In this document: piece after piece, positions 3,886 through 60,751 of the stretch
Numbering within the stretch: the stretch's first letter is position 1
Layout: every line of letters starts with the position of its first letter
Source: Neocallimastix lanati (nom. inval.)
Lineage: Eukaryota > Neocallimastigomycota > Neocallimastigomycetes > Neocallimastigales > Neocallimastigaceae
Direction: 5' to 3'
Assembly: GCA_016946835.1 (NCBI GenBank)
Contig: JACVTC010000040.1
Span: 1,152,501 to 1,216,500 of the forward strand
Length of the DNA: 64,000 bases
Made by a program: the position numbers and the translations under genes
Notes under the pieces: generated by a model
Seen by the model: only the letters and a program-made list of their open reading frames with translations
What the model was told of the DNA's origin: nothing
The model's database searches: none

Positions 3886-4290
3886 AATATGAATATAAAG
3901 CACAAATAAAATAAAATAAAATAAAATAAATAGCTGAAATATAAAGTACAGAATGAATAAAATAAAATAAAATAAATAGCTGAGATATAAAGTACAGATT
4001 GAATAAAATAAAATAAATAGCTGAAATATAAAGTACAGATTGAATAAAATAAAATAAATAGCTGAAATATAAAGTACAGATTGAATAAAATAAAATAAAT
4101 AGCTGAAATATAAAGTACAGATTGAATAAAATAAAATAAATAGCTGAAATATAAAGTACAGATTGAATAAAATAAAATAAAATAAATAGCTGAAATATAA
4201 AGTACAGATTGAATAAAATAAAATAAAATAAATAGCTGAAATATAAAGTACAGATTGAATAAAATAAAATAAAATAAATAGCTGAAATAT

Positions 4291-4292
<2 letters not shown>
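3886..4292. repeat. 41/46-bp minisatellite, about 9 copies
   Basis: Tandem units each contain AGCTGAAATATAAAGTACAG followed by ATTGAAT and an (AAAAT)n spacer. Units are 41 bp with two AAAAT steps and 46 bp with three, so copy length varies by slippage of the pentanucleotide. Nine AGCTGA[A/G]ATATAA cores start near 3,931, 3,978, 4,019, 4,060, 4,101, 4,142, 4,188, 4,234 and 4,280. A degenerate unit precedes them. The array stops abruptly inside a unit, where a poly-T tract begins at 4,293. Confidence 0.9.

Positions 4293-4328
<36 letters not shown>
4293..4328 (-). other. LINE poly(A) tail
   Basis: Thirty-six consecutive T on the plus strand sit between the broken minisatellite unit and the start of non-repetitive element sequence (AGACAGGGCAGAG). 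Read on the minus strand, this is the 3' poly(A) tail of LINE copy A. Confidence 0.75.
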
Positions 4329-4331
<3 letters not shown>

Positions 4332-4482
4332 CAGGGCAGAGAATACACTTCCAAAACTTTATTAATTTTATTTTAAAAAATACATGTAGGTGAAAAGGTA
4401 CATTTGAAATTAAAAATAAAAAAATTTAAAAAATAAAAAAAATAAAAAAGCTCGAAAATACTATGTATTTAGGCAAGTTGTA

Positions 4483-10672: not shown

Positions 10673-13600
10673 TTAAAGGTGAATTGAATTTTGCCTAATA
10701 CTTTTAATAGTTTCTGGTAAACTCAAAATCTCTTGATATAAATTTTTACTATTTATTTTTGATGACAAACATCCATATAAATATATATATAATAATGCTC
10801 CTTGAGGTAATGGTAAATAATGATGATAATCAACCATAACTAATATGGAATAAGGAATTAATAATACAGTATATAATAGAGAAAGTTGTGATACTTGAGA
10901 TATATTTGCATTTGAATTTAATAATGTTCCAAAAACACCTATAGCATATAAAATAAAATTATTCATTGAAATTCGACCTAAATTACATACTCTATCAATA
11001 TATTTTTTACCAATAATTTCTGTATTTGAACCATAGGTTCTTTCTAAATATGATTTATAATAATTAATGGAACCTATTATTCCACTGAAAATAAGTATTA
11101 TTATTCCATTTAATAACAATAAAACCATAGGAATATTTTCTTCAGAAATATTAAATTGTTCAAATACTAGTTCTATAGTATTAGAGACATCTGGAAGTGA
11201 TACAAATGCTTTTCCTATTAAAAAGATTAATATTGGATTTAATATCATTCTTATGAATGATATCATAGCCATCTTCCTAATGTTCACATTTTCCCTTTTT
11301 GGGAAATAAACATCTCTATTTTTTTCTTGAATTAGCAATCGTGGTCGATTTTTTACTTTACGCAACCTAAAATTTGGTTTATTATTTTTAATTAACCTAA
11401 AATTTGATTTATTACCTTTACTTGATTGAAAATTTTGTTTTTTGCTATTATTTGACCTAAATTTTTGCTTTCGGCTTTGGCTTAATTGAAAATTTTGATT
11501 ATTTTCTTGATCAACTATTTTATTATCACTTATTTCATTATACTGTTTATCTTTTTCATTTGTTATTAATTTAATACTTCTTTCTCCAGAAAGTTTTAAT
11601 ATTCCTATTATATATAATATAATACTCATTATATATGCTAAAATAAATTCTATTACACTTTTTTGTTCGCTATTCCTTTTATCATTGATCTTATCTTTTG
11701 AAATTTCTCTATTTAATTTCTTTTCAACCCTATTATTTAAAATGCTTTTTGTCCTTTTCTTACTATCACTGACTGATTCAGGTAATAATATATATTCATT
11801 GTTATTTTCAATATATTCTTTCTTATTTTCTAAAGATTCTTCATTAATAGAATCATCATCAACAAAAGTTTCAGTGAATAATTGTTCACCTGTTGACTCC
11901 TCAATTGTTTCATAAATTGACTTTTTACTACTAGAATAATTTTCATTTTTCCTATTTACATATGTTACGCTTTCATCTTCAAATCTTGATACTTCCATAT
12001 CTGAATTTTCCTTATTATTGTTTCTTCTTTGTTTATTTTTATTTTTTCTGTGTCTATTTGCCGTTTTACTATAAACTCTGTAAGGGATATATCTCTCTTT
12101 TTCTTCTACAATCTTCGTTTCATTATTGTTCTTATCCGAAATTTTATTCTTAGTTTCAAAACAAACATCTCTTGAATCTACATTAATAATTAACTCATTA
12201 TTTCCTGTAACATCTTTAGAAGGTTTTATTATTTCTTTTAATTTATTAGTTATTATTTTAAATAATCCTAACTTTTTATTTGTATTTATTTCCTCAACTA
12301 CTGGTTTTTGTTCTATTGATTGTTCTTCATTAATAGCTTCAATAATATTTTCGCCTATTTGTTTTTCAATTTGTTGCTCTATTGGTTTTTCTTCAACAAC
12401 CTTTTCCTTTGATTCATAAATATTTTCTTTAACAATATTTTCAATAACGGGTTGTTCAACTACCTCTTCTTCACCAGTAATTGGATTCTTCTTAGTAACA
12501 TATCTGATGATTCTCTTGATATATCTCTTCTTACCTGGAGCGTCAGAAGGAACTTCAACAATTTCTTCCTTAACTTCAGTAACTGGTTCTTCAGATACAA
12601 CTTCTTCTCTTGGTTCAGAAGTAACTTCTTCAACAACTGGTTCTTCAGTTTGTTCTTCAACTACTTCTTCTTCACCAGTAATTGGATTCTTCTTGGTTAT
12701 GTATCTGATGATTCTCTTGATATATCTCTTCTTTCCTGGAACGTCAGAAGGAACTTCAACAATTTCTTCCTTAACTTCAGTAACTGGTTCTTCAGATACA
12801 ACTTCTTCTCTTGGTTCAGAAGTAACTTCTTCAACAACTGGTTCTTCAGTTTGTTCTTCAACTACTTCTTCTTCACCAGTAGTTGGATTCTTCTTGGTAA
12901 TGTATCTGATGATTCTCTTGACATATCTCTTCTTACCTGGAACGTCGGAAGGAACTTCAACAATTTCTTCCTTAACTTCAGTAACTGGTTCTTCAGATAC
13001 AACTTCTTCTCTTGGTTCAGAAGTAACTTCTTCAACAACTGGTTCTTCAGTTTGTTCTTCAACTACTTCTTCTTCACCAGTAATTGGATTCTTCTTGGTT
13101 ATGTATCTGATGATTCTCTTGATATATCTCTTCTTTCCTGGAACGTCAGAAGGAACTTCAACAATTTCTTCCTTAACTTCAGTAACTGGTTCTTCAGATA
13201 CAACTTCTTCTCTTGGTTCAGAAGTAACTTCTTCAACAACTGGTTCTTCAGTTTGTTCTTCAACTACTTCTTCTTCACCAGTAACTGGATTCTTCTTGGT
13301 TATGTATCTGATGATTCTCTTGACATATCTCTTCTTACCTGGAACGTCGGAAGGAACTTCAACAATTTCTTCCTTAACTTCAGTAACTGGTTCTTCAGAT
13401 ACAACTTCTTCTCTTGGTTCAGAAGTAACTTCTTCAACAACTGGTTCTTCAGTTTGTTCTTCAACTACTTCTTCTTCACCAGTAATTGGATTCTTCTTGG
13501 TTATGTATCTGATGATTCTCTTGATATATCTCTTCTTTCCTGGAACGTCAGAAGGAACTTCAACAATTTCTTCCTTAACTTCAGTAACTGGTTCTTCAGA

Positions 13601-16600: not shown

Positions 16601-19600
16601 TTCTTCTTCACCAGTAACTGGATTCTTCTTGGTTAAGTATCTGATGATTCTCTTGACATATCTCTTCTTACCTGGAACGTCGGAAGGAACTTCAACAATT
16701 TCTTCTTTAACTTCAGAAACTGGTTCTTCAGAAGCAACTTCTTCCTTAATTTCAGTAACTGATTCTTCAGAAACAACTTCTTCTCTTGGTTCAGAAGTAA
16801 CTTCTTCAACAACTGGTTCTTCAGTTTGTTCTTCAACTACTTCTTCTTCACCAGTAACTGGATTCTTCTTGGTTATGTATCTGATGATTCTCTTGACATA
16901 TCTCTTCTTACCTGTAACGTCGGAAGGAATTTCAACAATTTCTTCCTTAACTTCAGTAACTGGTTCTTCAGATACAACTTCTTCTCTTGGTTCAGAAGTA
17001 ACTTCTTCAACAACTGGTTCTTCAGTTTGTTCTTCAACTACTTCTTCTTCACCAGTAGTTGGATTCTTCTTGGTAATGTATCTTATGATTCTCTTGACAT
17101 ATTTCTTCTTTCCTGGAACGTTAGAAGGAACTTCAACAATTTCTTCCTTAACTTCAGTAACTGGTTCTTCAGATACAACTTCTTCTCTTGGTTCAGAAGT
17201 AACTTCTTCAACAACTGGTTCTTCAGTTTGTTCTTCAACTACTTCTTCTTCACCAGTAGTTGGATTCTTCTTGGTAATGTATCTTATGATTCTCTTGACA
17301 TATCTCTTCTTACCTGGAACGTCGGAAGGAACTTCAACAATTTCTTCTTTAACTTCAGTAACTGGTTCTTCAGATACAACTTCTTCTCTTGGTTCAGAAG
17401 TAACTTCTTCAACAACTGGTTCTTCAGTTTGTTCTTCAACTACTTCTTCTTCACCAGTAACTGGATTCTTCTTGGTTATGTATCTGATGATTCTCTTGAC
17501 ATATCTCTTCTTACCTGGAACGTCGGAAGGAACTTCAACAATTTCTTCCTTAACTTCAGTAACTGGTTCTTCAGATACAACTTCTTCTCTTGGTTCAGAA
17601 GTAACTTCTTCAACAACTGTTTGTTCAATTGGTTGTTCTTCAACTATTTCTTCTTTGGGTTCAGAAGATATTTCTTCAACTGGTTGTTCTTCAACAACAG
17701 TTTCAACAACTTCTTCAACAACTGGTTGTTCTTTAATTTGTTGTTCTTCAACTGGTTGTTCCTTAGTAACTTCTTCAACAACTTCTTCTTCGCCAGTAAC
17801 TGGGTTCTTTCTAGTAATGTACTTTATGATTCTTCTAATAAATCTATTCTTACCAGCTTCTTCAGAAGAAATTTCAACAATTTCTTCCTTAATTTCTTCA
17901 GATGGTTGTTCTTCAACAACAGTTTCAACAACTTCTTCATTAACTGGTTGTTCTTCAATTGGTTGTTCTTCAATAACTTCTTCCTTTGGTTCAGTAGAAA
18001 CTTCTTCAACTGGTTGTTCAATTGGTTGTTCAATTGGTTGTTCAACTGGTTGTTCAACTGGTTGTTCTTCAACTGGTTGTTCTTCAATAACAGTTTCAAC
18101 AACTTCTTCAACAATTGGTTGTTCAACTAGTTGTTCAACTTGTTGTTCTTCAACAATAGTTTCAACAACTTCTTCAACAACTGGTTGTTCTTCAACAATT
18201 TCTTCCTTTGGTTCAGAAGAAACTTCTTCAACAACTGGTTGTTCAATTGGTTGTTCTTCAACAACAGTTTCAACAACTTCTTCAACAATTGGTTGTTCAA
18301 CTGGTTGTTCTTCAACAATTTCTTCCTTTGGTTCAGAAGAAATTTCTTCAACTGATTGTTCAACTGGTTGTTCTTCAACAACAGTTTCAACAACTTCTTC
18401 AACAACTGGTTGTTCAATTGGTTGTTCTTCAACAATAGTTTCAACAATTTCTTCAACAACAGGCTGTTCTTCAACAATTTCTTCCTTTGGTTCAGAAGAA
18501 ACTTTTTCAACAACTGGTTGTTCAATTGGTTGTTCTTCAACAATAGTTTCAACAACTTCTTCAACAATTGGTTGTTCAATTGGTTGTTCTTCAACTGGTT
18601 GTTCTTCAACAATAGTTTCAACAATTTCTTCAATAACTGGTTGTTCAACTGGTTGTTCTTCAATAACTTCTTCCTTTAGTTCAGAAGAAACTTCTTCAAC
18701 TGGTTGTTTTTCAACTGGTTGTTCTTCAACAACACTTTCAACAACTTCTTCAACAATTGGTTGTTCAACTGGTTGTTCTTCAACAATAGTTTCAACAACT
18801 TCTTCAACAATTGGTTGTTCAACTGGTTGTTCTTCAACAATTTCTTCCTTTGGTTCATAATAAACTTCTTCAACTGATTGTTCAATTGGTTGTTCAATTG
18901 GTTGTTCAATTGGTTGTTCAATTGGTTGTTCAACTTGTTGTTCTTCAACTGGTTGTTCTTCAACTGGTTGTTCTTCAACTGATTGTTCTTCAACTGGTTG
19001 CTCTTCAACTGGTTGTTCTTCAACAACACTTTCAACAACTTCTTCAACAATTGGTTGTTCAACTGGTTGTTCTTCAACAATAGTTTCAACAATTTCTTCA
19101 ACAATTGGTTGTTCAATTGGTTGTTCTTCAACTGGTTGTTCTTCAACTGGTTGTTCTTCAACAATAGTTTCAACAATTTCTTCAACAATTGGTTGTTCAA
19201 TTGGTTGTTCTTCAACTGGTTGTTCTTCAACAATAGTTTCAACAATTTCTTCAATAACTGGTTGTTCAACTGGTTGTTCTTCAATAACTTCTTCCTTTAG
19301 TTCAGAAGAAACTTCTTCAACTGGTTGTTTTTCAACTGGTTGTTCTTCAACAACACTTTCAACAACTTCTTCAACAATTGGTTGTTCAACTGGTTGTTCT
19401 TCAACAATAGTTTCAACAACTTCTTCAACAATTGGTTGTTCAACTGGTTGTTCTTCAACAACAGTTTCAACAACTTCTTCATTAACTGGTTGTTCTTCAA
19501 TTGGTTGTTCTTCAATAACTTCTTCCTTTGGTTCAGTAGAAACTTCTTCAACTGGTTGTTCAATTGGTTGTTCAATTGGTTGTTCAACTGGTTGTTCAAC

Positions 19601-22600
19601 TGGTTGTTCTTCAACTGGTTGTTCTTCAATAACAGTTTCAACAACTTCTTCAACAATTGGTTGTTCAACTAGTTGTTCAACTTGTTGTTCTTCAACAATA
19701 GTTTCAACAACTTCTTCAACAACTGGTTGTTCTTCAACAATTTCTTCCTTTGGTTCAGAAGAAACTTCTTCAACAACTGGTTGTTCAATTGGTTGTTCTT
19801 CAACAACAGTTTCAACAACTTCTTCAACAATTGGTTGTTCAACTGGTTGTTCTTCAACAATTTCTTCCTTTGGTTCAGAAGAAATTTCTTCAACTGATTG
19901 TTCAACTGGTTGTTCTTCAACAACAGTTTCAACAACTTCTTCAACAACTGGTTGTTCAATTGGTTGTTCTTCAACAATAGTTTCAACAATTTCTTCAACA
20001 ACAGGCTGTTCTTCAACAATTTCTTCCTTTGGTTCAGAAGAAACTTTTTCAACAACTGGTTGTTCAATTGGTTGTTCTTCAACAATAGTTTCAACAACTT
20101 CTTCAACAATTGGTTGTTCAATTGGTTGTTCTTCAACTGGTTGTTCTTCAACAATAGTTTCAACAATTTCTTCAATAACTGGTTGTTCAACTGGTTGTTC
20201 TTCAATAACTTCTTCCTTTAGTTCAGAAGAAACTTCTTCAACTGGTTGTTTTTCAACTGGTTGTTCTTCAACAACACTTTCAACAACTTCTTCAACAATT
20301 GGTTGTTCAACTGGTTGTTCTTCAACAATAGTTTCAACAACTTCTTCAACAATTGGTTGTTCAACTGGTTGTTCTTCAACAATTTCTTCCTTTGGTTCAT
20401 AATAAACTTCTTCAACTGATTGTTCAATTGGTTGTTCAATTGGTTGTTCAATTGGTTGTTCAATTGGTTGTTCAACTTGTTGTTCTTCAACTGGTTGTTC
20501 TTCAACTGGTTGTTCTTCAACTGATTGTTCTTCAACTGGTTGCTCTTCAACTGGTTGTTCTTCAACAACACTTTCAACAACTTCTTCAACAATTGGTTGT
20601 TCAACTGGTTGTTCTTCAACAATAGTTTCAACAATTTCTTCAACAATTGGTTGTTCAATTGGTTGTTCTTCAACTGGTTGTTCTTCAACTGGTTGTTCTT
20701 CAACAATAGTTTCAACAATTTCTTCAACAATTGGTTGTTCAATTGGTTGTTCTTCAACTGGTTGTTCTTCAACAATAGTTTCAACAATTTCTTCAATAAC
20801 TGGTTGTTCAACTGGTTGTTCTTCAATAACTTCTTCCTTTAGTTCAGAAGAAACTTCTTCAACTGGTTGTTTTTCAACTGGTTGTTCTTCAACAACACTT
20901 TCAACAACTTCTTCAACAATTGGTTGTTCAACTGGTTGTTCTTCAACAATAGTTTCAACAACTTCTTCAACAATTGGTTGTTCAACTGGTTGTTCTTCAA
21001 CAACAGTTTCAACAACTTCTTCATTAACTGGTTGTTCTTCAATTGGTTGTTCTTCAATAACTTCTTCCTTTGGTTCAGTAGAAACTTCTTCAACTGGTTG
21101 TTCAATTGGTTGTTCAATTGGTTGTTCAACTGGTTGTTCAACTGGTTGTTCTTCAACTGGTTGTTCTTCAATAACAGTTTCAACAACTTCTTCAACAATT
21201 GGTTGTTCAACTAGTTGTTCAACTTGTTGTTCTTCAACAATAGTTTCAACAACTTCTTCAACAACTGGTTGTTCTTCAACAATTTCTTCCTTTGGTTCAG
21301 AAGAAACTTCTTCAACAACTGGTTGTTCAATTGGTTGTTCTTCAACAACAGTTTCAACAACTTCTTCAACAATTGGTTGTTCAACTGGTTGTTCTTCAAC
21401 AATTTCTTCCTTTGGTTCAGAAGAAATTTCTTCAACTGATTGTTCAACTGGTTGTTCTTCAACAACAGTTTCAACAACTTCTTCAACAACTGGTTGTTCA
21501 ATTGGTTGTTCTTCAACAATAGTTTCAACAATTTCTTCAACAACAGGCTGTTCTTCAACAATTTCTTCCTTTGGTTCAGAAGAAACTTTTTCAACAACTG
21601 GTTGTTCAATTGGTTGTTCTTCAACAATAGTTTCAACAATTTCTTCAACAATTGGTTGTTCAATTGGTTGTTCTTCAACTGGTTGTTCTTCAACAATAGT
21701 TTCAACAATTTCTTCAATAACTGGTTGTTCAACTGGTTGTTCTTCAATAACTTCTTCCTTTAGTTCAGAAGAAACTTCTTCAACTGGTTGTTTTTCAACT
21801 GGTTGTTCTTCAACAACACTTTCAACAACTTCTTCAACAATTGGTTGTTCAACTGGTTGTTCTTCAACAATAGTTTCAACAACTTCTTCAACAATTGGTT
21901 GTTCAACTGGTTGTTCTTCAACAATTTCTTCCTTTGGTTCATAATAAACTTCTTCAACTGATTGTTCAATTGGTTGTTCAATTGGTTGTTCAATTGGTTG
22001 TTCAATTGGTTGTTCAATTGTTTGTTCAATTGGTTGTTCAACTTGTTGTTCTTCAACTGGTTGTTCTTCAACTGGTTGTTCTTCAACAACACTTTCAACA
22101 ACTTCTTCAACAATTGGTTGTTCAACTGGTTGTTCTTCAACAATAGTTTCAACAATTTCTTCAACAATTGGTTGTTCAATTGGTTGTTCTTCAACAATAG
22201 TTTCAACAACTTCTTCAACAATTGGTTGTTCAATTGGTTGTTCTTCAACAATAGTTTCAACAATTTCTTCAACAATTGGTTGTTCAATTGGTTGTTCTTC
22301 AACAATAGTTTCAACAACTTCTTCAACAATTGGTTGTTCAATTGATTGTTCTTCAACTGGTTGTTCTTCAACAATAGTTTCAACAATTTCTTCAATAACT
22401 GGTTGTTCAACTGGTTGTTTTTCAATAACTTCTTCCTTTAGTTCAGAAGAAACTTCTTCAACTGGTTGTTTTTCAACTGGTTGTTCTTCAACAACACTTT
22501 CAACAACTTCTTCAACAATTGGTTGTTCAACTGGTTGTTCTTCAACAACAGTTTCAACAACTTCTTCAACAATTGATTGTTCAACTGGTTGTTCTTCAAC

Positions 22601-25600
22601 AATTTCTTCCTTTGGTTCATAAGAAACTTCTTCAACTGATTGTTCAACTGGTTGTTCTTCAACAACAGTTTCAACAACTTCTTCAACAATTGATTGTTCA
22701 TCTGGTTGTTCTTCAACAATTTCTTCCTTTGGTTCATAAGAAACTTCTTCAACTGATTGTTCAACTGGTTGTTCTTCAACAACAGTTTCAACAACTTCTT
22801 CAACAATTGGTTGTTCAACTGGTTGTTCTTCAACAATTTCTTCCTTTGGTTCATAAGAAACTTCTTCAACTGATTGTTCAATTGGTTGTTCAATTGGTTG
22901 TTCAATTGGTTGTTCTTCAACTGGTTGTTCTTCAACTGGTTGTTCTTCAACTGGTTGTTCTTCAACTGGTTGTTCTTCAACTGGTTGTTCTTCAACTGGT
23001 TGTTCTTCAACTGGTTGCTCTTCAACTGGTTGTTCTTCAACAACAGTTTCAACAACTTCTTTAACAATTGTTTGTTCAACTTGTTGTTCTTCAACTTGTT
23101 GTTCTTCAACTGGTTGTTCTTCAACAAAAGATTCAACAATTTCTTCAATAACTGGTTGTTCAACTGGTTGTTCTTCAATAACTTCTTCCTTTGGTTCAGA
23201 AGAAACTTCTTCAACTGGTTGTTTTTCAACTGGTTGTTCTTCAACAACAGTTTCAACAACTTCTTCAACAATTGGTTGTTCAACTGGTTGTTCTTCAACA
23301 ACAGTTTCAACAACTTCTTCAACAATTGATTGTTCAACTGGTTGTTCTTCAACAATTTCTTCCTTTGGTTCATAAGAAACTTCTTCAACTGATTGTTCAA
23401 CTGGTTGTTCTTCAACAACAGTTTCAACAACTTCTTCAACAATTGATTGTTCATCTGGTTGTTCTTCAACAATTTCTTCCTTTGGTTCATAAGAAACTTC
23501 TTCAACTGATTGTTCAACTGGTTGTTCTTCAACAACAGTTTCAACAACTTCTTCAACAATTGGTTGTTCATCTGGTTGTTCTTCAACAATTTCTTCCTTT
23601 GATTCATAAGAAACTTCTTCAACTGATTGTTCAACTGGTTGTTCTTCAACAACAGTTTCAACAACTTCTTCAACAATTGATTGTTCATCTGGTTGTTCTT
23701 CAACAATTTCTTCTTTTGGTTCAGAAGAAACTTCTTCAACTGGTTGTTCAACTGGTTGTTCTTCAACAATAGTTTCAACAATTTCTTCAACAACAGGCTG
23801 TTCTTCAACAATTTCTTCTTTTGGTACAGAAGAAACTTCTTCAACAACTGGTTGTTCAATTGGTTGTTCAATTGGTTGTTCAACTTGTTGTTCTTCAATT
23901 GGTTGTTCTTCAACTGGTTGTTCTTCAACTGGTTGCTCTTCAACTGGTTGCTCTTCAACTGGTTGTTCTTCAACAACAGTTTCAACAACTTCTTCAACAA
24001 CTGGTTGTTCAATTGGTTGTTCTTCAACAATATCTTCCTTTGGTTCAGAAGAAACTTCTTCAACTGGTTGTTCAACTGGTCGTTCTTCAACAACATTTTC
24101 AACAATTTCTTCAACAATTGGTTGTTCAACTGGTTGTTCAATTGGTTGTTCTTCAACAACTTCTTCCTTTGGTTCAGAAGAAACTTCTTCAACTGGTTGT
24201 TTTTCAATTGGTTGTTCTTCAACAATAGTTTCAACAACATTTTCAACAATTGATTGTTCAATTGGTTGTTCTTCAACAATATCTTCCTTTGGTTCAGAAG
24301 AAACTTCTTCAACTGATTGTTCAACTGGTTGTTCTTCAACAACAGTTTCAACAACTTCTTCAACAATTGGTTGTTCAATTAGTTGTTCTTCAACAATAGT
24401 TTCAACAATTTCTTCAACAACAGGTTGTTTTTCTACAATTTCTTCCTTTGATTCAGAAGAAACTTCTTCAATTGGTTGTTCAATTGGTCGTTCAACTGGT
24501 TGTTCAACTGTTTGTTCTTCAACTGATTGTTCTTCAACTGGTTGTTCTTTAATAACAGTTTCAACAACTTCTTCAACAATTGGTTGTTCAACTGGTTGTT
24601 CTTCAACTGGTTGTTCTTCAACAATAGTTTCAACAACTTCTTCAACAATTGGTTGTTCTTCAACAATTTCTTCCTTTGGTTCAGAAGAAACCTCTTCAAC
24701 AACTGGTTGTTCAATTGGTTGTTCTTCAACAATAGTTTCAACAATTTCTTCAACAACAGGCTGTTCTTCAACAATTTCTTCCTTTGGTACAGAAGAAACT
24801 TCAACAACTGGTTGTTCTTCAATAACTTCTTCCTTTGGTTCAGTAGAAACTTCTTCAACAACTGGTTGTTCAATTGGTTGTTCTTCAACAATAGTTTCAA
24901 CAACTTCTTCAACAACTGGTTGTTCTTCAACAATTTCTTCATTTGGTTCAGAAGAAACTTCTTCAACAACTGGTTGTTCAATTGGTTGTTCTTCAACAAT
25001 AGTTTCAACAATTTCTTCAACAACAGGCTGTTCTTCAACAATTTCTTCCTTTGGTACAGAAGAAACTTCTTCAACAACTGGTTGTTCTTCAATAACTTCT
25101 TCCTTTGGTTCAGTAGAAACTTCTTCAACAACTAGTTTTTCAATTGGTTGTTCTTCAACAATAGTTTCAACAACTTCTTCAACAACTGGTTGTTCTTCAA
25201 CAATTTCTTCCTTTGGTTCAGAAGAAACCTCTTCAACAACTGGTTGTTCAACTGGTTTTTCTTCAACAAATTCTTCCTTTGGTTCAGAAAAAACTTCTTC
25301 AACAACTGGTTGTTCAATTGGTTGTTCTTCAACAACAGTTTCAACAACTTCTTCAACAATTGGTTGTTCTTCAATTGGTTGTTCTTCAACAATAGTTTCA
25401 ACAACTTCTTCAACAACTGGTTGTTCTTCAATAACTTCTTCCTTTGGTTCAGAAGAAACTTCTTCAACTGGTTGTTTTTCAATTGGTTGTTCTTCAACAA
25501 TAGTTTCAACAACTTCTTCAACAACTGGTTGTTCTTCAACAATTTCTTCCTTTGGTTCAGAAGAAACTTCTTCAACTGGTTGTTCAACTGGTTGTTCTTC

Positions 25601-28600
25601 AACAACAGTTTCAACAACTTCTTCAACAATTGGTTGTTCAATTGGTTGTTCAATTGGTTTTTCAAATGGTTGTTCAACTGGTTGTTCAACTGGTTGTTCT
25701 TCAACAATAGTTTCAACAACTTCTTCAACAACTGGTTGTTCTTCAACAATTTCTTCCTTTGGTTCAGAAGAAACTTCTTCAACAACTGGTTGTTCAATTG
25801 GTTGTTCTTCAACTGGTTGCTCTTCAACTGGTTGTTCTTCAATAAAGTCTTCCTTTGGTTCAGTAGAAACTTCTTCAACAACTGGTTGTTCTTCAATAAC
25901 TTCTTCCTTTGGTACAGAAGAAACTTCTTCAACAACTGGTTGTTCTTCAATAACTTCTTCCTTTGGTTCAGTAGAAACTTCTTCAACAACTAGTTTTTCA
26001 ATTGGTTGTTCTTCAACAATAGTTTCAACAACTTCTTCAACAACTGGTTGTTCTTCAACAATTTCTTCCTTTGGTTCAGAAGAAACCTCTTCAACAACTG
26101 GTTGTTCAACTGGTTTTTCTTCAACAAATTCTTCCTTTGGTTCAGAAAAAACTTCTTCAACAACTGGTTGTTCAATTGGTTGTTCTTCAACAATAGTTTC
26201 AACAACTTCTTCAACAATTGGTTGTACAACTGGTTGTTCTTCAACAATTTCTTCATTTGGTTCAGAAGAAACTTCTTCAATTGGTTCAATTGCATCATAT
26301 TTCTTTTCATTATTTGGAACAATCTTTCCATTACTTAACTTCTTTCCCTTACGTTTATTAGATTTTCCAAATACTCTATAAAGTATATTCTTCTTTTCAC
26401 TAGCAGGCTTTTCTTCAACTAGTTGTTCAGTTGGTTGTTCTTTAACAACAGTTTCAACAACTTTCTCAACAACAGGTTGTTCAATTGTTGGTTCTTCAAC
26501 AATTTCTTCTTTTGGTTCAGAAGAAACTTCTTCAACAACTGGTTGTTCAACTGGTTGTTCTTCAACAATAGTTTCAACAACTTCTTCTTCACCTGTAGTT
26601 GGATTCTTTCTAGTAATATACTTGAAGATTCTCTTAATAGATCTCTTTTTATCTGGTTCTTCAGTTGGAACTTCAACAATTTTTTCCTTAACTTCCTCAA
26701 TTGGTTGTTCTTCAACAACGTTTTCAACAATTGGTTGTTCAATTGTTTGTTCTTCTACTGGTTGTTCTTCAACTATTTCTTCCTTTGTTTCAGAAGAAAC
26801 TTCTTTAAGTAGTTGTTCTTCAGTTGGTTGTTCTTCAACAACAGTTTCAACAACTTCTTCAACAATTGGTTTTTCATCTTGTTGTTCTTCAACTGTTTGT
26901 TCTTCAACTGGTTGTTCTTCAACTGGTTGTTTTTCAACTGGTTGTTCTTCAACTGGTTGTTCTTCAACTGGTTGTTCTTCAATAATCTCTTCCTTTGGTT
27001 CAGAAGAAACTTCTTCAACTGGTTGTTCAACTGGTTGTTCTTCAACAACAGTTTCAACAACTTCTTCAACAACTTCTTCAACAATTGGTTGTTCAATTGG
27101 TCGTTCAATTGGTTGTTCAATTGGTTGTTCAACTGGTTGTTCTTCAACTGGTTGTTCTTCAACAATTTCTTCAATTGGGTCAGAAGAAACTTCTTCAACT
27201 GGTTGTTCAACTGGTTGTTCTTCAACAATGGTTTCAACTACTTCTTCAACAATTGGTTGTTCAACTGGTTGTTCTTCAACTGGTTGTTCTGAAGCAACTT
27301 CTTCAATAACTTCTTCCTTTGGTTCAGAAGAAATTTCTTCAATTTGTTGTTCTTCAACTGATTGCTCTTCAGCAATAGTTTCAACAACTTCTTCAACAAT
27401 TGGTTGTTCAACTGGTTGTTCTTCAACTATTTTTTCCTTTGGCTCTGAAGAAACTTCTTCAACTGGTTGTTCTTCAGCTCTTTCTTCAATAATTTCTCCT
27501 TCACCTGTAGTTGGATTCTTTCTAGTAATGTACTTAATTATTCTCTTAATAAATCTCTTTCTATCTGGTTCTTTAGCTGGAACTTCAACAATTTCTTCCT
27601 TAACTTCTTCATTTGGTTGTTCTTTAACAACGGTTTCAATTACTTCTTCAACAATTGGTTGTTCAATTGTTTGTTCTTCAACTGGTTGTTCTTCAATTAT
27701 TTCTTCTTTTGGTTCAGAAGAAATTTCTTCAATTGGTTGTTCAATTGTTTGTTCAACCGGTTGTTCAATTGGTTGTTCTTCAAAAACTGTTTCAACTACT
27801 TCTTGTTGTTTTGCATTAACTGGAACAACCTTTCCACTTCTTAACTTCTTTCCCTTACGTTTATTTGATTTACCAAATACTCGGTACATTATATTCTTCT
27901 TTGTTTCAGCTGGCTTTTCTTCAATAATTTCTTCCTTTGGTTCAGAAGAAATTTCTTCAACAACTGATTGTTCAATTGGTTGTTCAACAGGTTGTTCTTC
28001 AGAAATTTCTTCAACAACTTCTTCTACAACTGGTTGTTCTTCAACAACAGTTTCAACAACTTCTTCAACAATTGGTTGGTCAACTGGTTGTTCTTCAACA
28101 ATCTCTTCCTTTGGTTCAGAAGAAACTTCTTCAATTGGTTGTTCAATTGGTTGTTCTTCAACAATAGTTTCAACAATTTCTTCTACAATTGGTTGTTCAA
28201 CTGGTTGTTCTTCAACTGGTTGTTTTTCAACAATTTCTTCCTTTGGTTCAGAAGAAACTTCTTCAACTAGTTGTTCAACTGGTTGTTCTTCAACAATGGT
28301 TTCAACTACTTCTTCAACAATTGGTTGTTCAACCGGTTGTTCTGAAGCAATTTCTTCAATAACTTCTTTCTTTTGTTCAGAAGAAATTTCTTCAATTGGT
28401 TGTTCTTCAACTGGTTGCTCTTCAGCAACTTCTTCAACAACTTCTTCTTCACCTGTAATTGGATTCTTTCTTTTAATATACTTGATGATTCTCTTAATAA
28501 ATCTCTTTTTACCTGGTTCTTCAGTTGGAATTTCAACAATTTCTTCCTTAACTTCTTCAACTGGTTGCTCTTCAACAACGGTTTCAACAACTTCTTCTAC

Positions 28601-43600: not shown

Positions 43601-46600
43601 TTCTTCAACTTGTTGTTCTATTGGTTGTTCAACTGGTTGTTCTTCAGTGACTTCTTCAACAACTTCTTGTTGTTTTTCATTAACCGTAACAACCTTTCCA
43701 CTTCTTAACTTCTTTCCTCTACGTTTATTTGATTTACCAAATACTCTGTACATTATATTCTTCTTTGTTTTAGCTGGCTCTTCTTCAACAACTTCTTCAA
43801 CAATTGGTTGTTCAATTGATTGTTCAATTGGTTGTTCTTCAATAACTTCTTCCTTTGGTTCAGAAGAAACTTCTTCAACTGGTTGTTCTTCAACTGGTTG
43901 TTCTTCAACAATTTCTTCCTTTGGCTCATAAGTAACTTCTTCAACTGGTTGATCAACTGTTTGTTCTTCAATCACAGTCTCAACAACTTCTTCAACATTT
44001 GGTTGTTCAATTGGTTGTTCTTCAACAATTTCTTCCTTGGGTTCTGAAGAAATTTCTTCAACTGTTTGTTCAACTGGTTGTTCTTCAACAACAGTTTCAA
44101 CAACTTCTTCAACAACTGGTTGTTCAATTGGTTTTTCTTCTAAGATTTCTTCCTTTGGTTCAGAAAAAACTTTTTCAACCGGTTGTTCTTCAATCACAGT
44201 CTCAACAACTTCTTCAACAACTGGTTGTTCTTCAATCACAGTCTCAACAACTTCTTCAACAACTGGTTGTTCAATTGTTTGTTTTTCAATTGGTTTTTCT
44301 TCTACAATTTCTTCCTTTGGTTCTGAAGAAACTTCTTCAACTGGTTGTTCAATTGGTTGTTCTTCAGAGACTTCTTCAACAACTTCTTCTTCACCTGTAG
44401 TTGGATTCTTTCTAGTAATGTACTTGATGATTCTCTTAATGAATCTTTTTCTACCTGGTTCTTCAGTTGGAACTTCAACAATTTCTTCCTTGACCTCTTC
44501 AATTGGTTGTTCTTCAACAACGTTTTCGACAACTTCTTCAACAACTGGTTGTTTAATTGGTTGTTCTTCAACTGGTTGTTCTTCAACAATTTCTTCCTTT
44601 GGTTCAGAAGAAACTTCTTCAACTGGTTGTTCAATTGTTTGTTTTTCATTTGGTTTTTCTTCTTCAATTTCTTCCTTTTGTTCTGAAGAAACTTCTTCAA
44701 CTGGTTGTTCTTCAATCACAGTCTCAACTACTTCTTCAACAACTGGTTGTTCAATTGTTTGTTTTTCAATTGGTTTTTCTTCTACTATTTCTTCCTTTGG
44801 TTCAGAAGAAATTTCTTCAACTGGTTGTTCTTCAATCACAGTCTCAATAACTTCTTCAACAACTGATTGTTCAATTGGTTGTTCTTCAACAATTTCTTCC
44901 TTGGGTTCTGAAGAAACTTCTTCAACTGGTTGTTCAATTGGTTGTTCTTCAGCAACTTCTTCAATAACTTCTTCTTCACCTGTAGTTGGATTCTTTCTAG
45001 TAATGTATTTGATGATTCTCTTAATGAATCTCTTTCTACCTGGTTCTTCAGTTGGAACTTCAACAATTTCTTCCTTGACTTCTTCAATTGGTTGTTCTTC
45101 AACAACGGTTTCGACAACTTCTTCAACAACTGGTTGTTCAATTGTTTGTTCAATTGGTTGTTCTTCAACAATTTCTTCCTTTGGTTCAGAAGAAACTTCT
45201 TCAACTGGTTGTTCTTCAATCACAGTCTCAACAACTTCTTCAACAACTGGTTTTTCAATTGTTTGTTTTTCATTTGGTTTTTCTTCTTCAATTTCTTCCT
45301 TTTGTTCTGAAGAAACTTCTTCAACTGGTTGTTCAATTGGTTGTTCTTCAAATACTGTTTCAACTACTTCTTGTTGTTTTTCATTAACTGGAACAACCTT
45401 TCCACTTCTTAACTTCTTTCCCTTACGTTTATTAGATTTACCAAATACTCTGTACATTATATTCTTCTTTGTTTTAGCTGGCTGTTCTTCAATAACTTCT
45501 TCCTTTGTTTCAGTAGTAACTTCTTCAATAACTGGTTGTTCAACTGGTTGTTCTTCAACAACAGTTTCAACAACTTCTTCAATAACTGGTTGTTCAATTG
45601 GTTTTTCCTCCACAATTTCTTCCTTTGGTTCTGAAATAATTTCTTCAACTTGTTGTTCAATTGGTTGTTCTTCAACAATTTTTTCCTTTTGTTGTGAAAT
45701 AACTTCTTCAACTGGTTGTTCTTCAACAATTTCTTCCTTTGGTTCAAAAATTACTTTTTCAACTGGTTGTTCAATTGGTTGTTCTTCAAATACTGTTTCA
45801 ACTACTTCTTGTTGTTTTTCATTAACTGGAACAACCTTTCCACTTCTTAACTTCTTTCCCTTACGTTTATTAGATTTACCAAATACTCTGTACATTATAT
45901 TTTTTTTTGTTTTAGCTGGCTTTTCTTCTACAATTTCTTCCTTTGGTACTAAAGAAACTTCTTCAACTGGTTGTTCTTCAATTACGGTCTCAACAACTTC
46001 TTCAACAACTGGTTTTTCAATTGGTTTTTCCTCCACAATTTTTTTCTTTGGTTCTGAAATAATTTCTTCAACTTGTTGTTCAATTTGTTGTTCTTCAACA
46101 ATTTTTTTCTTTTGTTGTGAAATAACTTCTTCAACTGGTTGTTCTTCAACAATGCTTTCAATAAATTCTTCAACAACTTGTTGTTCAACTGGTTGTTCTT
46201 CAACAATTTCTTCCTTTGGTTCAGAAATAACTTTTTCAATTGGTTGTTCAATTGGTTGTTCAACTGGTTGTTCTTCAGCGACTTCTTCAACAACTTCTTC
46301 TTCACCTGTTGTTGGATTCTTTCTGGTAATGTACTTGATGATTCTCTTAATGAAACTCTTTTTACCTGGTTCTTCAGTAGGAACTTCAACAATTTCTTCC
46401 TTCACTTCTTCAACTGGTTGTTCTTCAACAATGGTTTCAACAACTTCTTCAATAACTGGTTGTTCAATTGGTTGTTCAATTGGTTGTTCTTCAACAATTT
46501 CTTCCTTTGGTTCATAAATAACTTCTTCAACTGGTTGTTCAACTGGTTGTTCTTCAACAATTTCTTCCTTTGGTTCAGAAGAAACTTCTTCAATTGTTTG

Positions 46601-49600
46601 TTCAATTGTTTGTTCAATTGTTTGTTCAACTGGTTGTTCAACTGGTTGTTCTTTAAAAACTGTTTCAACTACTTCTTGTTGTTTTTCATTAACTGGAACA
46701 ACCTTTCCACTTCCTAATTTCATTCCCTTACGTTTATTAGATTTACCAAATACTCTGTACATTATATTCTTCTTTGTTTTAGCTGGCTGTTCTTCAATAA
46801 CTTCTTCCTTTGTTTCAGAAGTAACTTCTTCAATAACTGGTTGTTCAACTGGTTGTTCTTCAACTACAGTCTCAACATCTTCTTCAACAACTGGTTGTTC
46901 AATTGGTTGTTCAATTGGTTGTTCTTCAACAATTTCTTCCTTTGGTTCAGAAATAACTTCTTCAACTGGTTGTTCTTCAACAACGCTTTCAACAACTTCT
47001 TCAATAACTGGTTGTTCAATTGGTTGTTCAACTGGTTGTTCTTCAGCAACTTCTTCAACAACTTCTTCTTCACCAGTAGTTGGATTCTTTCTAGTAATGT
47101 ACTTGATGATTCTCTTAATGAATCTCTTTTTACCTGGTTCTTCAGTTGGAACTTCAACAATTTCTTCCTCTGGTTCAGAAATAACTTCTTCAACTGGTTG
47201 TTCTTCAACAACGCTTTCAACAACTTCTTCAATAACTGGTTGTTCAATTGGTTCTTCTTCAAAAATTTCTTCCTTTGGTTCAGAAATAACTTCTTCAACT
47301 GGTTGTTCTTCAACAACGCTTTCAACAACTTCTTCAACAACTGGTTGTTCAATTGGTTGTTCAATTGGTTGTTCAATTGGTTGTTCAATTAGTTGTTCAA
47401 TTGGTTGTTCAATTGGTTGTTCAATTAGTTGTTCAATTGGTTGTTCAATTGGTTGTTCAACTGGTTGTTCTTCAATTATTTCTTCCTTTGGTTCAGTAGA
47501 AACTTCTTCAACTGGTTGTTCAATTGGTTGTTCAACTGATTGTTCTTCAACAACGCTTTCAACAACTTCTTCAATAACTGGTTGTTCAATTGGTTGTTCT
47601 TCAACAATTTCTTCTTTTGGTTCAGAAATAACTTCTTCAACTGGTTGTTCTTCAACAACGCTTTCAACAACTTCTTCAACAACTGGTTGTTCAATTGGTT
47701 GTTCAATTGGTTGTTCAATTAGTTGTTCAATTGGTTGTTCAATTGGTTGTTCATCTGGTTGTTCAACTGGTTGTTCTTCAATTATTTCTTCCTTTGGTTC
47801 AGTAGAAACTTCTTCAACTGGTTGTTCAATTGGTTGTTCAATTGGTTGTTCAATTGGTTGTTCAATTGGTTGTTCAATTGGTTGTTCAATTGGTTGTTCA
47901 ACTGGTTGTTCTTCAACAACGCTTTCAACAACTTCTTCAACAACTGGTTGTTCAATTGGTTGTTCAATTGGTTGTTCAATTAGTTGTTCAATTGGTTGTT
48001 CAATTGGTTGTTCATCTGGTTGTTCAACTGGTTGTTCTTCAATTATTTCTTCCTTTGGTTCAGTAGAAACTTCTTCAACTGGTTGTTCAATTGGTTGTTC
48101 AACTGATTGTTCTTCAACAACGCTTTCAACAACTTCTTCAATAACTGGTTGTTCAATTGGTTTTTCTTCAACAATTTCTTCTTTTGGTTCAGAAATAACT
48201 TCTTCAACTGGTTGTTCAATTGGTTGTTCTTCAGCGATTTCTTCAACAACTTCTTCTTCACCAGTAGTTGGATTCTTTCTAGTAATGTACTTGATGATTC
48301 TCTTAATGAATCTCTTTTTACCTTGTTCTTCAGTTGGAACTTCAACAATTTCTTCCTTTACTTCTTCAACTGGTTGTTCTTCAACAACAGTTTCAACAAC
48401 ATCTTCAACAACTGGTTGTTCAACTGGTTGTTCTTCAACAATTTCTTCCTTTGGTTCAGAAGAAACTTCTTCAACTGGTTGTTCAATTGGTTGTTCAACT
48501 GATTGTTCTTCAACAACGCTTTCAACAACTTCTTCAATAACTGGTTGTTCAATTGGTTGTTCTTCAACAATTTCTTCTTTTGGTTCAGAAATAACTTCTT
48601 CAACTGGTTGTTCTTCAACAACGCTTTCAACAACTTCTTCAACAACTGGTTGTTCAATTGGTTGTTCAATTGGTTGTTCAATTGGTTGTTCAATTGGTTG
48701 TTCAATTGGTTGTTCATCTGGTTGTTCAACTGGTTGTTCTTCAATTATTTCTTCCTTTGGTTCAGTAGAAACTTCTTCAACTGGTTGTTCAATTGGTTGT
48801 TCAACTGATTGTTCTTCAACAACGCTTTCAACAACTTCTTCAATAACTGGTTGTTCAATTGGTTGTTCTTCAACAATTTCTTCTTTTGGTTCAGAAATAA
48901 CTTCTTCAACTGGTTGTTCAATTGGTTGTTCTTCAGCGATTTCTTCAACAACTTCTTCTTCACCAGTAGTTGGATTCTTTCTAGTAATGTACTTGATGAT
49001 TCTCTTAATGAATCTCTTTTTACCTTGTTCTTCAGTTGGAACTTCAACAATTTCTTCCTTTACTTCTTCAACTGGTTGTTCTTCAACAACAGTTTCAACA
49101 ACATCTTCAACAACTGGTTGTTCAACTGGTTGTTCTTCAACAATTTCTTCCTTTGGTTCAGAAGAAACTTCTTCAACTGGTTGTTCAATTGGTTGTTCAA
49201 CTGATTGTTCTTCAACAACGCTTTCAACAACTTCTTCAATAACTGGTTGTTCAATTGGTTGCTCAACTGATTGTTCTTCAACAACGCTTTCAACAACTTC
49301 TTCAATAACTGGTTGTTCAATTGGTTGTTCTTCAACAATTTCTTCTTTTGGTTCAGAAATAACTTCTTCAACTGGTTGTTCTTCAACAACTGGTTGTTCA
49401 ATTGGTTGTTCAATTGGTTGTTCAATTAGTTGTTCAATTGGTTGTTCAATTGGTTGTTCATCTGGTTGTTCAACTGGTTGTTCTTCAATTATTTCTTCCT
49501 TTGGTTCAGTAGAAACTTCTTCAACTGGTTGTTCAATTGGTTGTTCAACTGATTGTTCTTCAACAACGCTTTCAACAACTTCTTCAATAGCTGGTTGTTC

Positions 49601-55600: not shown

Positions 55601-58600
55601 TTCCTTAACTTCTTCAACTGGTTGTTCTTCAACAACGCTTTCAACAACTTCTTCAATAACTGGTTGTTCAATTGGTTGTTCAACTGGTTGTTCTTCAGCG
55701 ACTTCTTCAACAACTTCTTCTTCACCTGTTGTTGGATTCTTTCTAGTAATGTACTTGATGATTCTCTTAATGAATCTATTTTTACCTTGTTCTTCAGTTG
55801 GAACTTCAACAATTTCTTCCTTAACTTCTTCAACTGGTTGTTCTTCAACAATGGTTTCAACAACTTCTTCAACAACTGGTTGTTCAATTGGTTGTTCAAT
55901 TGGTTGTTCAATTGGTTGTTCAATTAGTTGTTCTTCAACAATTTCTTCCTTTGGTTCTAAAATAACTTCTTCAACTGGTTGTTCTTCAACAACGCTTTCA
56001 ACAACTTCTTCAATAACTGGTTGTTCAATTGGTTGTTCTTCAACAATTTCTTCCTTTGGTTCAGAAGAAACTTCTTCAACTGGTTGTTCAATTGGTTGTT
56101 CAACTGGTTGTTCTTCAGCAACTTCTTCAACAACTTCTTCTTCACCAGTAGTTGGATTCTTTCTGGTAATGTACTTGATGATTTTCTTAATAAATCTCTT
56201 TTTACCTGGTTCTTCAGCTGGAACTTCAACAATTTCTTCCTTAACTTCTTCAACTGGTTGTTCTTCAACAATTTCTTCCTTTGGTTCAGAAATAACTTCT
56301 TCAACTGGTTGTTCTTCAACAATGGTTTCAACAACTTCTTCAACAACTGGTTGTTCAACTGGTTGTTCTTCAACAATTTCTTCCTTTGGTTCAGAAATAA
56401 CTTCTTCAACTGGTTGTTCAACTGGTTGTTCTTCAGCAACTTCTTCAACAACTTCTTCTTCACCTGTAGTTGGATTCTTTCTAGTAATGTACTTGATGAT
56501 TCTCTTAATGAATCTCTTTTTACCTGGTTCTTCAATTGGAACTTCAACAATTTCTTCCTTAACTACTTCCTTTGGTTGTTCTTCAACGATTTCTTCCTTT
56601 GGTTCGGAAAAAACTTCTTCAACTGATTGTTCAACTGGTTGTTCTTCAGCAACTTCTTCAACAACTTCTTCTTCACCAGTAATTGGATTCTTTCTAGTAA
56701 TATATTTAATAATTCTCTTAATAAATCTCTTTCTACCTGGTTCTTCAGTTGGAACTTCAACAATTTCTTCCTTTGGTTCAGAAATAATTTTTTCAACTGG
56801 CTTTTCTTCATCTGATTGTTCTTCAATAATGGTTTCAACAACTTCTTCAATAACTTCTTCATCTGATTGTTCAATTTGTTGTTCAACTGGTTGTTCTTCA
56901 GTGACTTCTTCAACAACTTCTTCTTCTCCTGTAGTTGGATTCTTTCTAGTAATGTACTTGATAATTCTCTTAATGAATCTCTTTTTGCCTGGTTCCTCAG
57001 TTGGAACTTCAACAATTTCTTCCTTAACTACTTCCTTTGGTTGTTCTTCAACGATTTCTTCCTTTGGTTCAGAAGAAACTTCTTCAACTGATTGTTCAAC
57101 TGGTTGTTCTTCAGCAACTTCTTCAACAACTTCTTCTTCACCAGTAATTGGATTCTTTCTGGTAATATATTTAATAATTCTCTTAATAAATCTCTTTCTA
57201 CCTGGTTCTTCAGATGGAACTTCAACAATTTCTTCTCTAATTTCTTCCTTTGGTAATTCTTCAGCAACTTCTTCATAATCTGTTTCAGGATTAGATTTAT
57301 TAACATATCTAATAATCTTTTTTCTAATAATTCTTGTTTGCGAAGCAGTAGAAGGTTCATCAAGAATATTTTCATCATCGTATTCTTCTTCTTCATATTC
57401 TGGAACTTCAGTTTCTCTAGATTCACTAGAAATTTTTTCAGTTGGTTCTTCAATAACCTTTTCATATTCTTCATACTCCTTAATAGGAGTTTCAACGTTT
57501 TCTTCATTATCTATTTCAGAAAATGATTTATTGATATATTTAGTTATTTTCTTTCTAATAATTCTTGTTTGTGAAGCAGTAGAAGGTTCATCAAGAATAT
57601 TTTCATCATCGTCTTCTTCTTCTTCTTCATATTCCGGAACTTCAGTTTCTCTAGATTCACTAGAAATTTTCTCAGTTGGTTCTTCAATAACCTTTTCATA
57701 TTCTTCATACTCCTCAATAGGAGTTTCAACGTTTTCTTCATTATCTATTTCAGAAAATGATTTATTGATATATTTAGTTATTTTCTTTCTAATAATTCTT
57801 GTTTGTGAAGCAGTAGAAGGTTCATCAAGAATATTTTCATCATCATCATCATCTTCTTCTTCTTCTTCATATTCTGGAACTTCAGTTTCTCTAGATTCAC
57901 CAGAAATTTTTTCAGTTGGTTCTTCCTCAATAACTTTTTCAGATTCTCCATATTCATAAGAAATATCTTCTGTTGGAATTTCAACAACTTCTTCAATAAC
58001 TTCATTATTATCTATTTCTGGATTAGATTTATTAATATATTTAGTAATCTTTTTTCTAATAATTCTTGTTTGTGAAGCAGTAGAAGGTTCATCAAGAATA
58101 TTTTCATCATCATCATCTTCTTCTTCTTCTTCATATTCTGGAACTTCAGTTTCTCTAGATTCACCAGAAATTTTTTCAGTTGGTTCTTCCTCAATAACTT
58201 TTTCAGATTCTCCATATTCATAAGAAATTTCTTCCGTTGGAATTTCAACAACTTCTTCAACAATTTCTTCATTATCTGTTTCTGGATTAGATTTATTAAC
58301 ATATCTAATAATTTTCTTTCTAATAGTTCTTTTTTGTGAAGCAGTAGATGATTCATCAAGAATATTTTCTTTTTCTTCTTCTTCTTCTTGTTCTTCTTCT
58401 TTTTCCTCTTTTTCTTCATGTTCTGGTACAAAAGCTTCTCTAGATTCATCATTAATGTCATCATCTGTTGGTTCTTCAACAACTTCTTCAACAACTTCTT
58501 CTTCACCAGTTTCTGGATTAATTCTAGCAATATATCTAATAATCTTCTTAATTACTTTCTTATGTTGAATTGGTTGTGGTTCTTCTTCTTCTTCTTCTTC

Positions 58601-60751: not shown

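Follow-up and report, generated by a model that had tools for sequence, protein, structure and literature searches.

A 50-kb open reading frame of Neocallimastix lanati predicted to encode a giant membrane-anchored repeat protein

Introduction

The Woronin-body tether Leashin (Lah) has been described as a giant, acidic and repeat-rich protein with a membrane-anchored C-terminus, and its authors compare it with the PEVK (proline, glutamate, valine, lysine) region of titin (PMC2690989, PMC5345055). In the published accounts of LAH-1 and LAH-2 of the Pezizomycotina, an acidic, proline-rich and poorly conserved repeat middle lies between conserved ends, and the C-terminus is inserted into a membrane. 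Here we describe a stretch of 64,000 nucleotides from the gut fungus Neocallimastix lanati (nom. inval.; assembly GCA_016946835.1, contig JACVTC010000040.1, positions 1,152,501 to 1,216,500 of the forward strand), which we call the window and which holds one open reading frame of 50,079 bp on its minus strand. With moderate confidence we read the encoded giant as an elastic tether or spacer, anchored in a membrane and facing the cytosol, that would work like Leashin or the PEVK spring of titin and would belong to neither family.

Results

An uninterrupted frame of 16,692 codons

10673..60751, minus strand, open reading frame of 16,692 residues and 1.92 MDa without an in-frame stop

The frame begins with the ATG at 60751 and ends with the stop codon at 10673-10675. 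Its product has a calculated mass of 1.923 MDa, a net charge of -3,739 and consists of 30% glutamate, 17.5% valine, 9.6% proline, 9.5% isoleucine and 7.5% glutamine. A first, sequence-only reading of the window had proposed a single open frame of this length with a clean start, a product of about 1.9 MDa and a composition unlike the flanks. All of this was confirmed: a TAA stands in frame four codons upstream of the ATG, and the guanine-plus-cytosine (GC) content is 29-36% in 2-kb segments wholly within the frame and 12-19% in the adjoining ones. The last 595 codons have a GC content of 23%. The plus-strand reading of the same interval was discarded, with 289 stops in its first frame. The claim that the product is among the largest known for a fungus holds, although it is not the largest, since the Trichoderma peptide synthetase gene tex1 is reported at about 62.8 kb; tex2, at about 50.1 kb, is equal (PMC11610996).

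Evidence for a protein-coding gene

The genome searched for relatives comprised 199.0 Mb in 762 contigs, which is slightly below the published size and may be incomplete. A paralogous giant was found on contig C368 (541084-571854) and a stand-alone copy of the C-terminal membrane domain on contig C752. Compared with the C368 paralogue, the ratio of nonsynonymous to synonymous substitution rates (dN/dS) was 0.28 (0.161/0.567) for the N-terminus and 0.52 (0.368/0.703) for the C-terminal linker; for the membrane domain against the C752 gene it was 0.25 (0.326/1.312). In the repeat cores the proportions of nonsynonymous and synonymous differences (pN/pS) gave 0.14-0.30 within a core type and 0.37-0.44 over all cores, the latter aligned by position only, and third positions were the most variable each time. 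Among the 16,692 codons, 8,266 are one substitution away from a stop and none is a stop, so the openness of the frame exceeds chance. The offsets between repeat copies (pairs of at least 200 bp with at least 90% identity in the window) were multiples of three in all 621 pairs within the window giant, in all 308 within the C368 giant and in all 1,085 between them.

It is scarcely credible that the frame is a decaying, non-functional repeat array, open through composition alone. The dN/dS ratios at both ends and the pN/pS ratios in the cores are below 1, the N-terminus is conserved in the duplicate and in a metagenome protein, and none of the near-stop codons has been hit. The point in its favour is that repeat codons such as GAA, GTT and CCA leave long frames on the opposite strand, up to 2,547 residues in the window and 4,999 in C368; these antisense frames result from the codon usage of the repeats. 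Since the frame bears the marks of purifying selection and its N-terminus recurs in a metagenome contig, we predict a gene here: 10673-60751 is very likely protein-coding, with purifying selection on its ends and repeat cores.

Seven 90-bp segments of the frame fall below 20% GC, one near codon 111 and six C-terminal, where the relatives are open too, and none in the repeats. The splice-like words GTAAGT and GTATGT occur once each and GTGAGT not at all. The single intronless frame with distinct ends, as first proposed, is supported. The GC and splice-word counts, together with the unbroken frame of three of the four giants in the genome (see below), argue against a frame made in pieces, with the membrane and N-terminal parts transcribed and translated apart. 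We consider this improbable, although it has a precedent in Neurospora leashin, predicted at 10,821 residues and reported to be in reality two transcription units (PMC2690989). The C-terminal domain does exist as a stand-alone gene. A search covering 5.8 billion database proteins, moreover, gave 733 candidates of 5,500-17,500 residues, none with the N-terminus of the window giant, which means that this database has no annotation of the giant at such a length.

61613..61926, minus strand, non-coding stretch upstream of the frame, with 73-75% conservation in the corresponding position ahead of the C368 giant

In a search with this stretch, C368 ranked first of 62 other matches, 58 bits above the next. 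AT-rich background reaches 103 bits, and the upstream conservation therefore counts as modest support.

Repeat modules and linkers

59762..60751, minus strand, N-terminal non-repetitive region, residues 1-330, without a hydrophobic stretch and with conserved short motifs
57332..59761, minus strand, first and most divergent repeat modules, residues 331-1140, of the same kind in the C368 giant and in the metagenome protein P0004
12461..59761, minus strand, repeat region, residues 331-16,097, with 68 core modules and acidic linkers rich in proline, glutamate, valine and glutamine
57026..57265, minus strand, example module of 80 residues, a three-stranded beta meander by structure prediction
26360..46759, minus strand, 15 matches to YRV[FY][GS]K[ST], the motif that begins a basic insert, residues 4,665-11,464
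17909..26545, minus strand, longest core-free stretch, acidic, after residue 11,402; 2,880 residues scored, 993 of them aspartate or glutamate (D+E) and 88 lysine or arginine (K+R)
12461..17578, minus strand, near-regular array of mostly 67-residue units with 25 cores of the 'RY' type, covering the final 1,706 residues of the repeats

The strict turn NPxTG[EK]E defines the 68 core modules in residues 331-16,097. Proline, glutamate, valine and lysine make up 66% of this region, which lies on the disordered side of a charge-hydropathy plot and has a proline about every 10 residues. When 52 residues are assumed for each core, the modules total 3,536 residues and the linkers 12,241. The linkers contain 34-36% D+E and 5-6% K+R, the modules 25% and 17%. 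The example module was predicted with strands at residues 6-16, 25-37 and 44-56, a mean predicted local distance difference test score (pLDDT) of 74.2, rising to 82-91 as 10-residue means across residues 11-50, and a predicted template modelling score of 0.52. The strands carry an acidic/basic/acidic charge pattern in 68 of 68 strict cores of the window giant and in 70 of 70 of the C368 giant. The modules, of about 50 residues, are thus predicted to be three-stranded beta sheets whose middle strand is basic and whose outer strands are acidic. An amphipathic basic helix had been considered for the module core (helix moment 1.74-1.79 in two cores); it was replaced by the three-strand prediction and is still possible for an isolated core. 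The repeat region is charged, as the sequence-only reading had it, but is not featureless, since 68 modules in it have a basic core and are predicted to fold into small beta sheets.

The basic insert reads YRVFGKSNKRKGKK or close to it in the four of the 15 matches that were inspected in sequence. A 16th, diverged match to its motif lies within the C-terminal linker. The repeats of another giant of this genome, on contig C334, have a different inserted motif, KPGFLDKLAQKITDLVEPKD, which is amphipathic-helix-like, and the similar KLGLFKIITNKLKEIIKPSK occurs in the C-terminal linker of the window giant (within 11282-12460).

The strong block-charge pattern of modules and linkers and the 15 insert motifs would also suit a multivalent membrane scaffold or condensate former, in which linkers and modules bind partners or each other and length sets valency, not reach. 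The Leashin-type LAH-2 is described as scaffolding two proteins at the tip of the hypha, a kinase and an enzyme (PMC7275032). We regard a scaffold as possible and rather unlikely, as the charges of each module are predicted to be balanced inside its own sheet. In addition, the numbers of strict cores are near equal in the window and C368 giants (68 vs 70) and the linker residues differ two-fold (12,241 vs 5,928), a relation that suits a spacer at least equally well.

The C-terminal membrane part

11282..12460, minus strand, basic non-repetitive linker, residues 16,098-16,490
11600..11656, minus strand, first hydrophobic helix, residues 16,366-16,384, retained by the C368 giant
10676..11281, minus strand, polytopic membrane domain, residues 16,491-16,692, for which the comparison of all relatives gives 4-5 hydrophobic segments, with homologues on C752 and in Anaeromyces robustus

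By hydropathy, neither residues 1-330 nor the repeats contain a 19-residue segment above 1.6. The last 327 residues have four such segments, the final one beginning 71 residues from the end. The proposed layout, without a signal peptide and with membrane segments at the C-terminus, was therefore recovered. By the positive-inside rule, flanks rich in lysine and arginine mark the cytosolic side of a membrane protein. In the window giant, the K+R and D+E counts are 27 and 10 before the polytopic domain, 0 and 5 in the next loop and 6 and 3 in the following loop, a pattern that fits a cytosolic N-terminal side of this domain. Such a layout is compatible with a spacer in the cytosol that is held at a membrane, and the interpretation of the sequence-only reading is partly supported. 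A search of solved structures with the C-terminal alignment returned no sequence.

Comparison with known systems

The window giant shares the acidic, proline-rich middle of Leashin (net charge and PEVK content as given above), which is a general property and not diagnostic. The repeat consensus of Neurospora LAH, PEEVELPASP (R2/R3) and LPVDEDLDLLPALPES (R1), had best ungapped matches of 5/10 and 5/16 in the giant, and each of 20 shuffles matched better (6-7). Lah differs in its coiled coils and in its single membrane segment, behind which lies a 219-residue outer domain (PMC5345055); by hydropathy the giant has instead the four C-terminal segments described above. LAH-2 has been called specific to the Pezizomycotina (PMC7275032), and the passages on Lah consulted here do not mention basic-cored beta modules like those of the giant. 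The N-terminus of Lah (LahN) binds the Woronin body; residues 1-330 of the giant matched no Pfam family above cut-off. Leashin is the nearest working parallel to the giant, which by repeat consensus and C-terminal hydropathy would fall outside the Leashin family.

Titin has tandem Ig and FN3 domains and a kinase. In the parts of the giant scanned in full, residues 1-1,333 and 15,418-16,692, no Pfam rows for these were found. The 66% of proline, glutamate, valine and lysine and the disorder predicted for the repeats from their composition resemble the PEVK spring; the repeats differ from it in sequence and in having 7.5% glutamine, and the giant in having a predicted membrane anchor. KASH proteins such as nesprin have a single membrane helix and a short lumenal tail with a PPPX-type end. 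The giant ends in RQNSIHL, has several hydrophobic segments and gave no KASH row in Pfam.

For the modules, the comparison is with the G5-E rods of SasG and Aap of staphylococci, variable-length surface proteins of the 'periscope' type built on a single-layer, triple-stranded beta sheet. SasG_E (PF17041) was below threshold, with 18.6 bits against a cut-off of 25 in one of 49 modules, and none of the 49 gave a row for a G5 family in Pfam. When the predicted module was used in VIA-align, 6 of 50 rows were titled SasG or G5 and 2 more RpfB, which we take to hold a G5 domain; that other folds are missing from these rows carries no weight.

Four giants in the genome

The genome holds four giant loci on four contigs, as two pairs of paralogues (window/C368 and C738/C334). 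The C368 giant has 10,256 residues, 70 strict cores and an N-terminus 71% identical to that of the window giant, and it shares the C-terminal linker (138 of 279 aligned residues identical) together with the first hydrophobic helix. A search with the first repeats of the window giant led to the two others, of 8,139 residues on C738 and of 15,350 codons in one frame on C334 (2389975-2436024). Their openness was taken from the frame lengths reported by the genome search; their ends and 2 kb of the C334 middle were read. The N-termini of these two are 67% identical (dS 0.503, dN 0.187) and differ from the window type. Both giants end with CIIM directly before a TAG, so that a cysteine stands fourth from the end; the C-terminal regions ahead of this end are divergent, with identity at 83 of 193 aligned residues. 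These ends have the form of a CaaX-type motif, a putative site of prenylation. Whether by a polytopic domain, a single hydrophobic helix or a CaaX end, attachment to a membrane at the C-terminus appears to be what the giants have in common. The four would make up a new gut-fungus family of giant repeat proteins with predicted membrane anchoring.

The same design, with differing lengths, at four loci on four contigs makes it very improbable that the length is an assembly artefact of tandem repeats mis-joined or multiplied. The published PacBio assembly has 200.97 Mb in 970 contigs at 62x coverage and was built with MECAT and Arrow from reads with a mean length of 7,821 bp (PMC8561657). Such reads leave room for an error, and the window giant has internal duplications of 2.6 and 2.8 kb that are 99.8% and 98.7% identical; the C334 giant has a stop inside a simple repeat. 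Only three internal duplications of at least 1 kb reach 98% identity, however, the longest ungapped one (2.8 kb) is shorter than the mean read, and the frame is kept in all 621 repeat offsets.

The synonymous divergence of the N-termini is similar in the two pairs (dS 0.57 for window/C368 and 0.50 for C738/C334), which may reflect one large duplication or a hybrid origin. Several top kinase rows of the genome also come as near-equal pairs. The 67-residue arrays (window 12461-17578) differ between the window and C368 loci by a pS of 0.12, against the N-terminal dS of 0.57. That the arrays are more alike than the N-termini suggests recent exchange or homogenisation between the loci.

Wider relatives of the two ends

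The polytopic domain occurs alone in a 395-residue frame on C752 (H8356DRAFT_1027599), 48% identical over 287 residues, and in the 335-residue protein BCR32DRAFT_288767 of Anaeromyces robustus; the protein search scored the 8,000 candidates with most words in common, and the anchor protein may have further relatives. Both stand-alone proteins resemble the membrane domain of the giant (44-48% identical) and have a short charged tandem repeat in front. They differ from the giant in size (332-395 residues) and repeat type (NKSIDKSIEENKG), and they lack the giant region and the first hydrophobic helix. The repeat tail of the stand-alone anchor gene (L020:618-1805) varies, with 395 residues in the assembly frame, 332 in the NCBI model and 382 in a metagenome cluster.

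The N-terminus recurs in P0004, a protein of 897 residues on a 2,897-bp JGI metagenome contig, which is 41% identical over 92% and continues with the same kind of modules. P0004 presumably comes from another gut fungus. It was the only hit to the N-terminus among 3,665 candidates of about 410-1,310 residues. The search of both ends for homologues that the sequence-only reading had called for thus gave relatives on either side, C368 and P0004 for the N-terminus and C752 and Anaeromyces robustus for the C-terminal domain. The ends are unique within the protein, as had been claimed, but not within the genome.

The view that the giant belongs to no known family stands for both ends, neither of which matched Pfam or NCBIfam above cut-off, but the whole-protein cut-offs of Pfam are exceeded by several pieces of the repeats. 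Six pieces matched no NCBIfam family, and four anchor-domain sequences gave Pfam rows only at an expectation value (E) of 0.23 or worse. The rows in the repeat pieces (bits/cut-off) were XPA_C 33.1/25, ORF158L-like 33.9/27, DUF7669 27.1/23 and Ribosomal_S3Ae 35.2/29.3, the last with five stretches passing alone. They were rejected as composition artefacts because like repeats match unrelated families, the best stretches cover 12-43 residues and P0004 lacks all four.

No tblastn relative of the module was found in prokaryotes among 589 stretches of the genome_contigs collection matching one pattern, which is weak evidence of absence. The same holds for viral contigs, where few patterns were used and neither the N-terminus, with 43 stretches, nor the C-terminal alignment, with 232, had a relative. 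The literature searched, largely judged by titles, contained no description of a giant protein from Neocallimastigomycota or Neocallimastix lanati, and the term Neocallimasti was absent from the main text, as consulted, of a paper on huge proteins (PMC11573180).

Proposed function

In the proposed tether, the N-terminus (330 residues, rich in short motifs) would bind a cargo or structure and hold it away from the membrane. About 15,800 residues of PEVK-like linker and charge-clamped beta-sheet modules would form a long, soft and extensible tether or spacer, to which the modules would add stiffness or sacrificial unfolding. At its other end the chain would be anchored in a membrane by the polytopic C-terminal domain, and its repeats would face the cytosol. 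CaaX prenylation occurs at the cytosolic face only. We infer a cytosolic topology from these ends in the sister giants, from the lack of a signal peptide and from the lysine and arginine pattern of the loops, and we likewise infer elasticity and tethering. By arithmetic, the chain pulled straight would measure about 6.0 micrometres, the linkers alone 4.4 micrometres. The relaxed coil would have a radius of gyration of about 60 nm, a rough lower figure that charge repulsion would enlarge. Kinetosomes of the zoospore, nuclei and hydrogenosomes are candidate partners, and nothing in the present analysis favours any of them.

Several observations weigh against this proposal. The C368 giant ends before the polytopic domain. 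Past its stop no continuation was found in three forward frames to base 573,800, and a weak C-terminal match there (E 9.6e-4) runs beyond the stop with five stops inside, so that the C368 copy may be truncated or eroding. Its repeats hold an AT-rich dip of 17-19% GC at frame bases 14,821-14,970, which is open and has an intron-like composition; of the four 90-bp segments below 20% GC in the C368 frame, three form this single repeat dip. The C334 giant has a single in-frame TAA after codon 9,074, within a simple EEQPI repeat, which may be polymorphic, may truly truncate the protein or may come from an error of assembly. The repeat number of the window giant may be off, since no average read spans 50 kb and repeats of 98% identity or more extend to 2.8 kb. 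To these comes the absence of a database protein of such length with this N-terminus. As for structure, the C-terminal model was unusable (mean pLDDT 42.7), the beta-module model has no basis beyond paralogous repeats, and of 37 looser turn matches in the ends read from the C738/C334 pair only 24 have the acidic/basic/acidic signs.

Beyond the tether itself, and tentatively, gut fungi may have evolved their own megadalton intracellular springs, in which chains of thousands of PEVK-like residues and charge-clamped three-stranded beta modules that can open under load would be combined with interchangeable anchors (polytopic domain, helix or CaaX end) and with N-termini that choose the cargo. They would be a cytosolic, eukaryotic counterpart of the bacterial SasG rods and, when stretched, could reach across micrometres. 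If the tethers are real, a fungus outside the muscle and Woronin-body lineages would keep up to four intracellular tethers of 8,139-16,692 residues, with a tether module outside every Pfam family above cut-off and anchored to membranes in differing ways. Giant elastic tethers would then appear to have an origin separate from both titin and Leashin, and the four loci would offer a natural length series for the effects of tether length as well as a compact, charge-held beta module. The giant also illustrates a gap in gene prediction, as the protein database searched has no match to it at 5,500-17,500 residues.

Further observations

CBM_10 fungal dockerins were abundant in the genome, with 1,440 first-look candidates, of which 150 were scored, and none in 14 control genomes. 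The modules of the giants recur before a conserved domain of 100 residues in a cluster of open frames of 354-503 residues, probably exons, on contig C665 (1481001-1491000) and in a copy on C645 (1140-3987). This domain had 10 matches in the genome, and its likeness in Pfam to the winged helix of ASH2L is weak and below cut-off. Downstream of the window giant, a broken reverse-transcriptase element lies at 5620-7056 (RVT_1, E 1.3e-22; a second piece is just under the cut-off). A copy of the DNA at 4293-5250, with 95% identity, lies on the downstream side of the C368 giant, and 3892-4292 is a minisatellite with 8-9 copies of a 41-46 bp unit.

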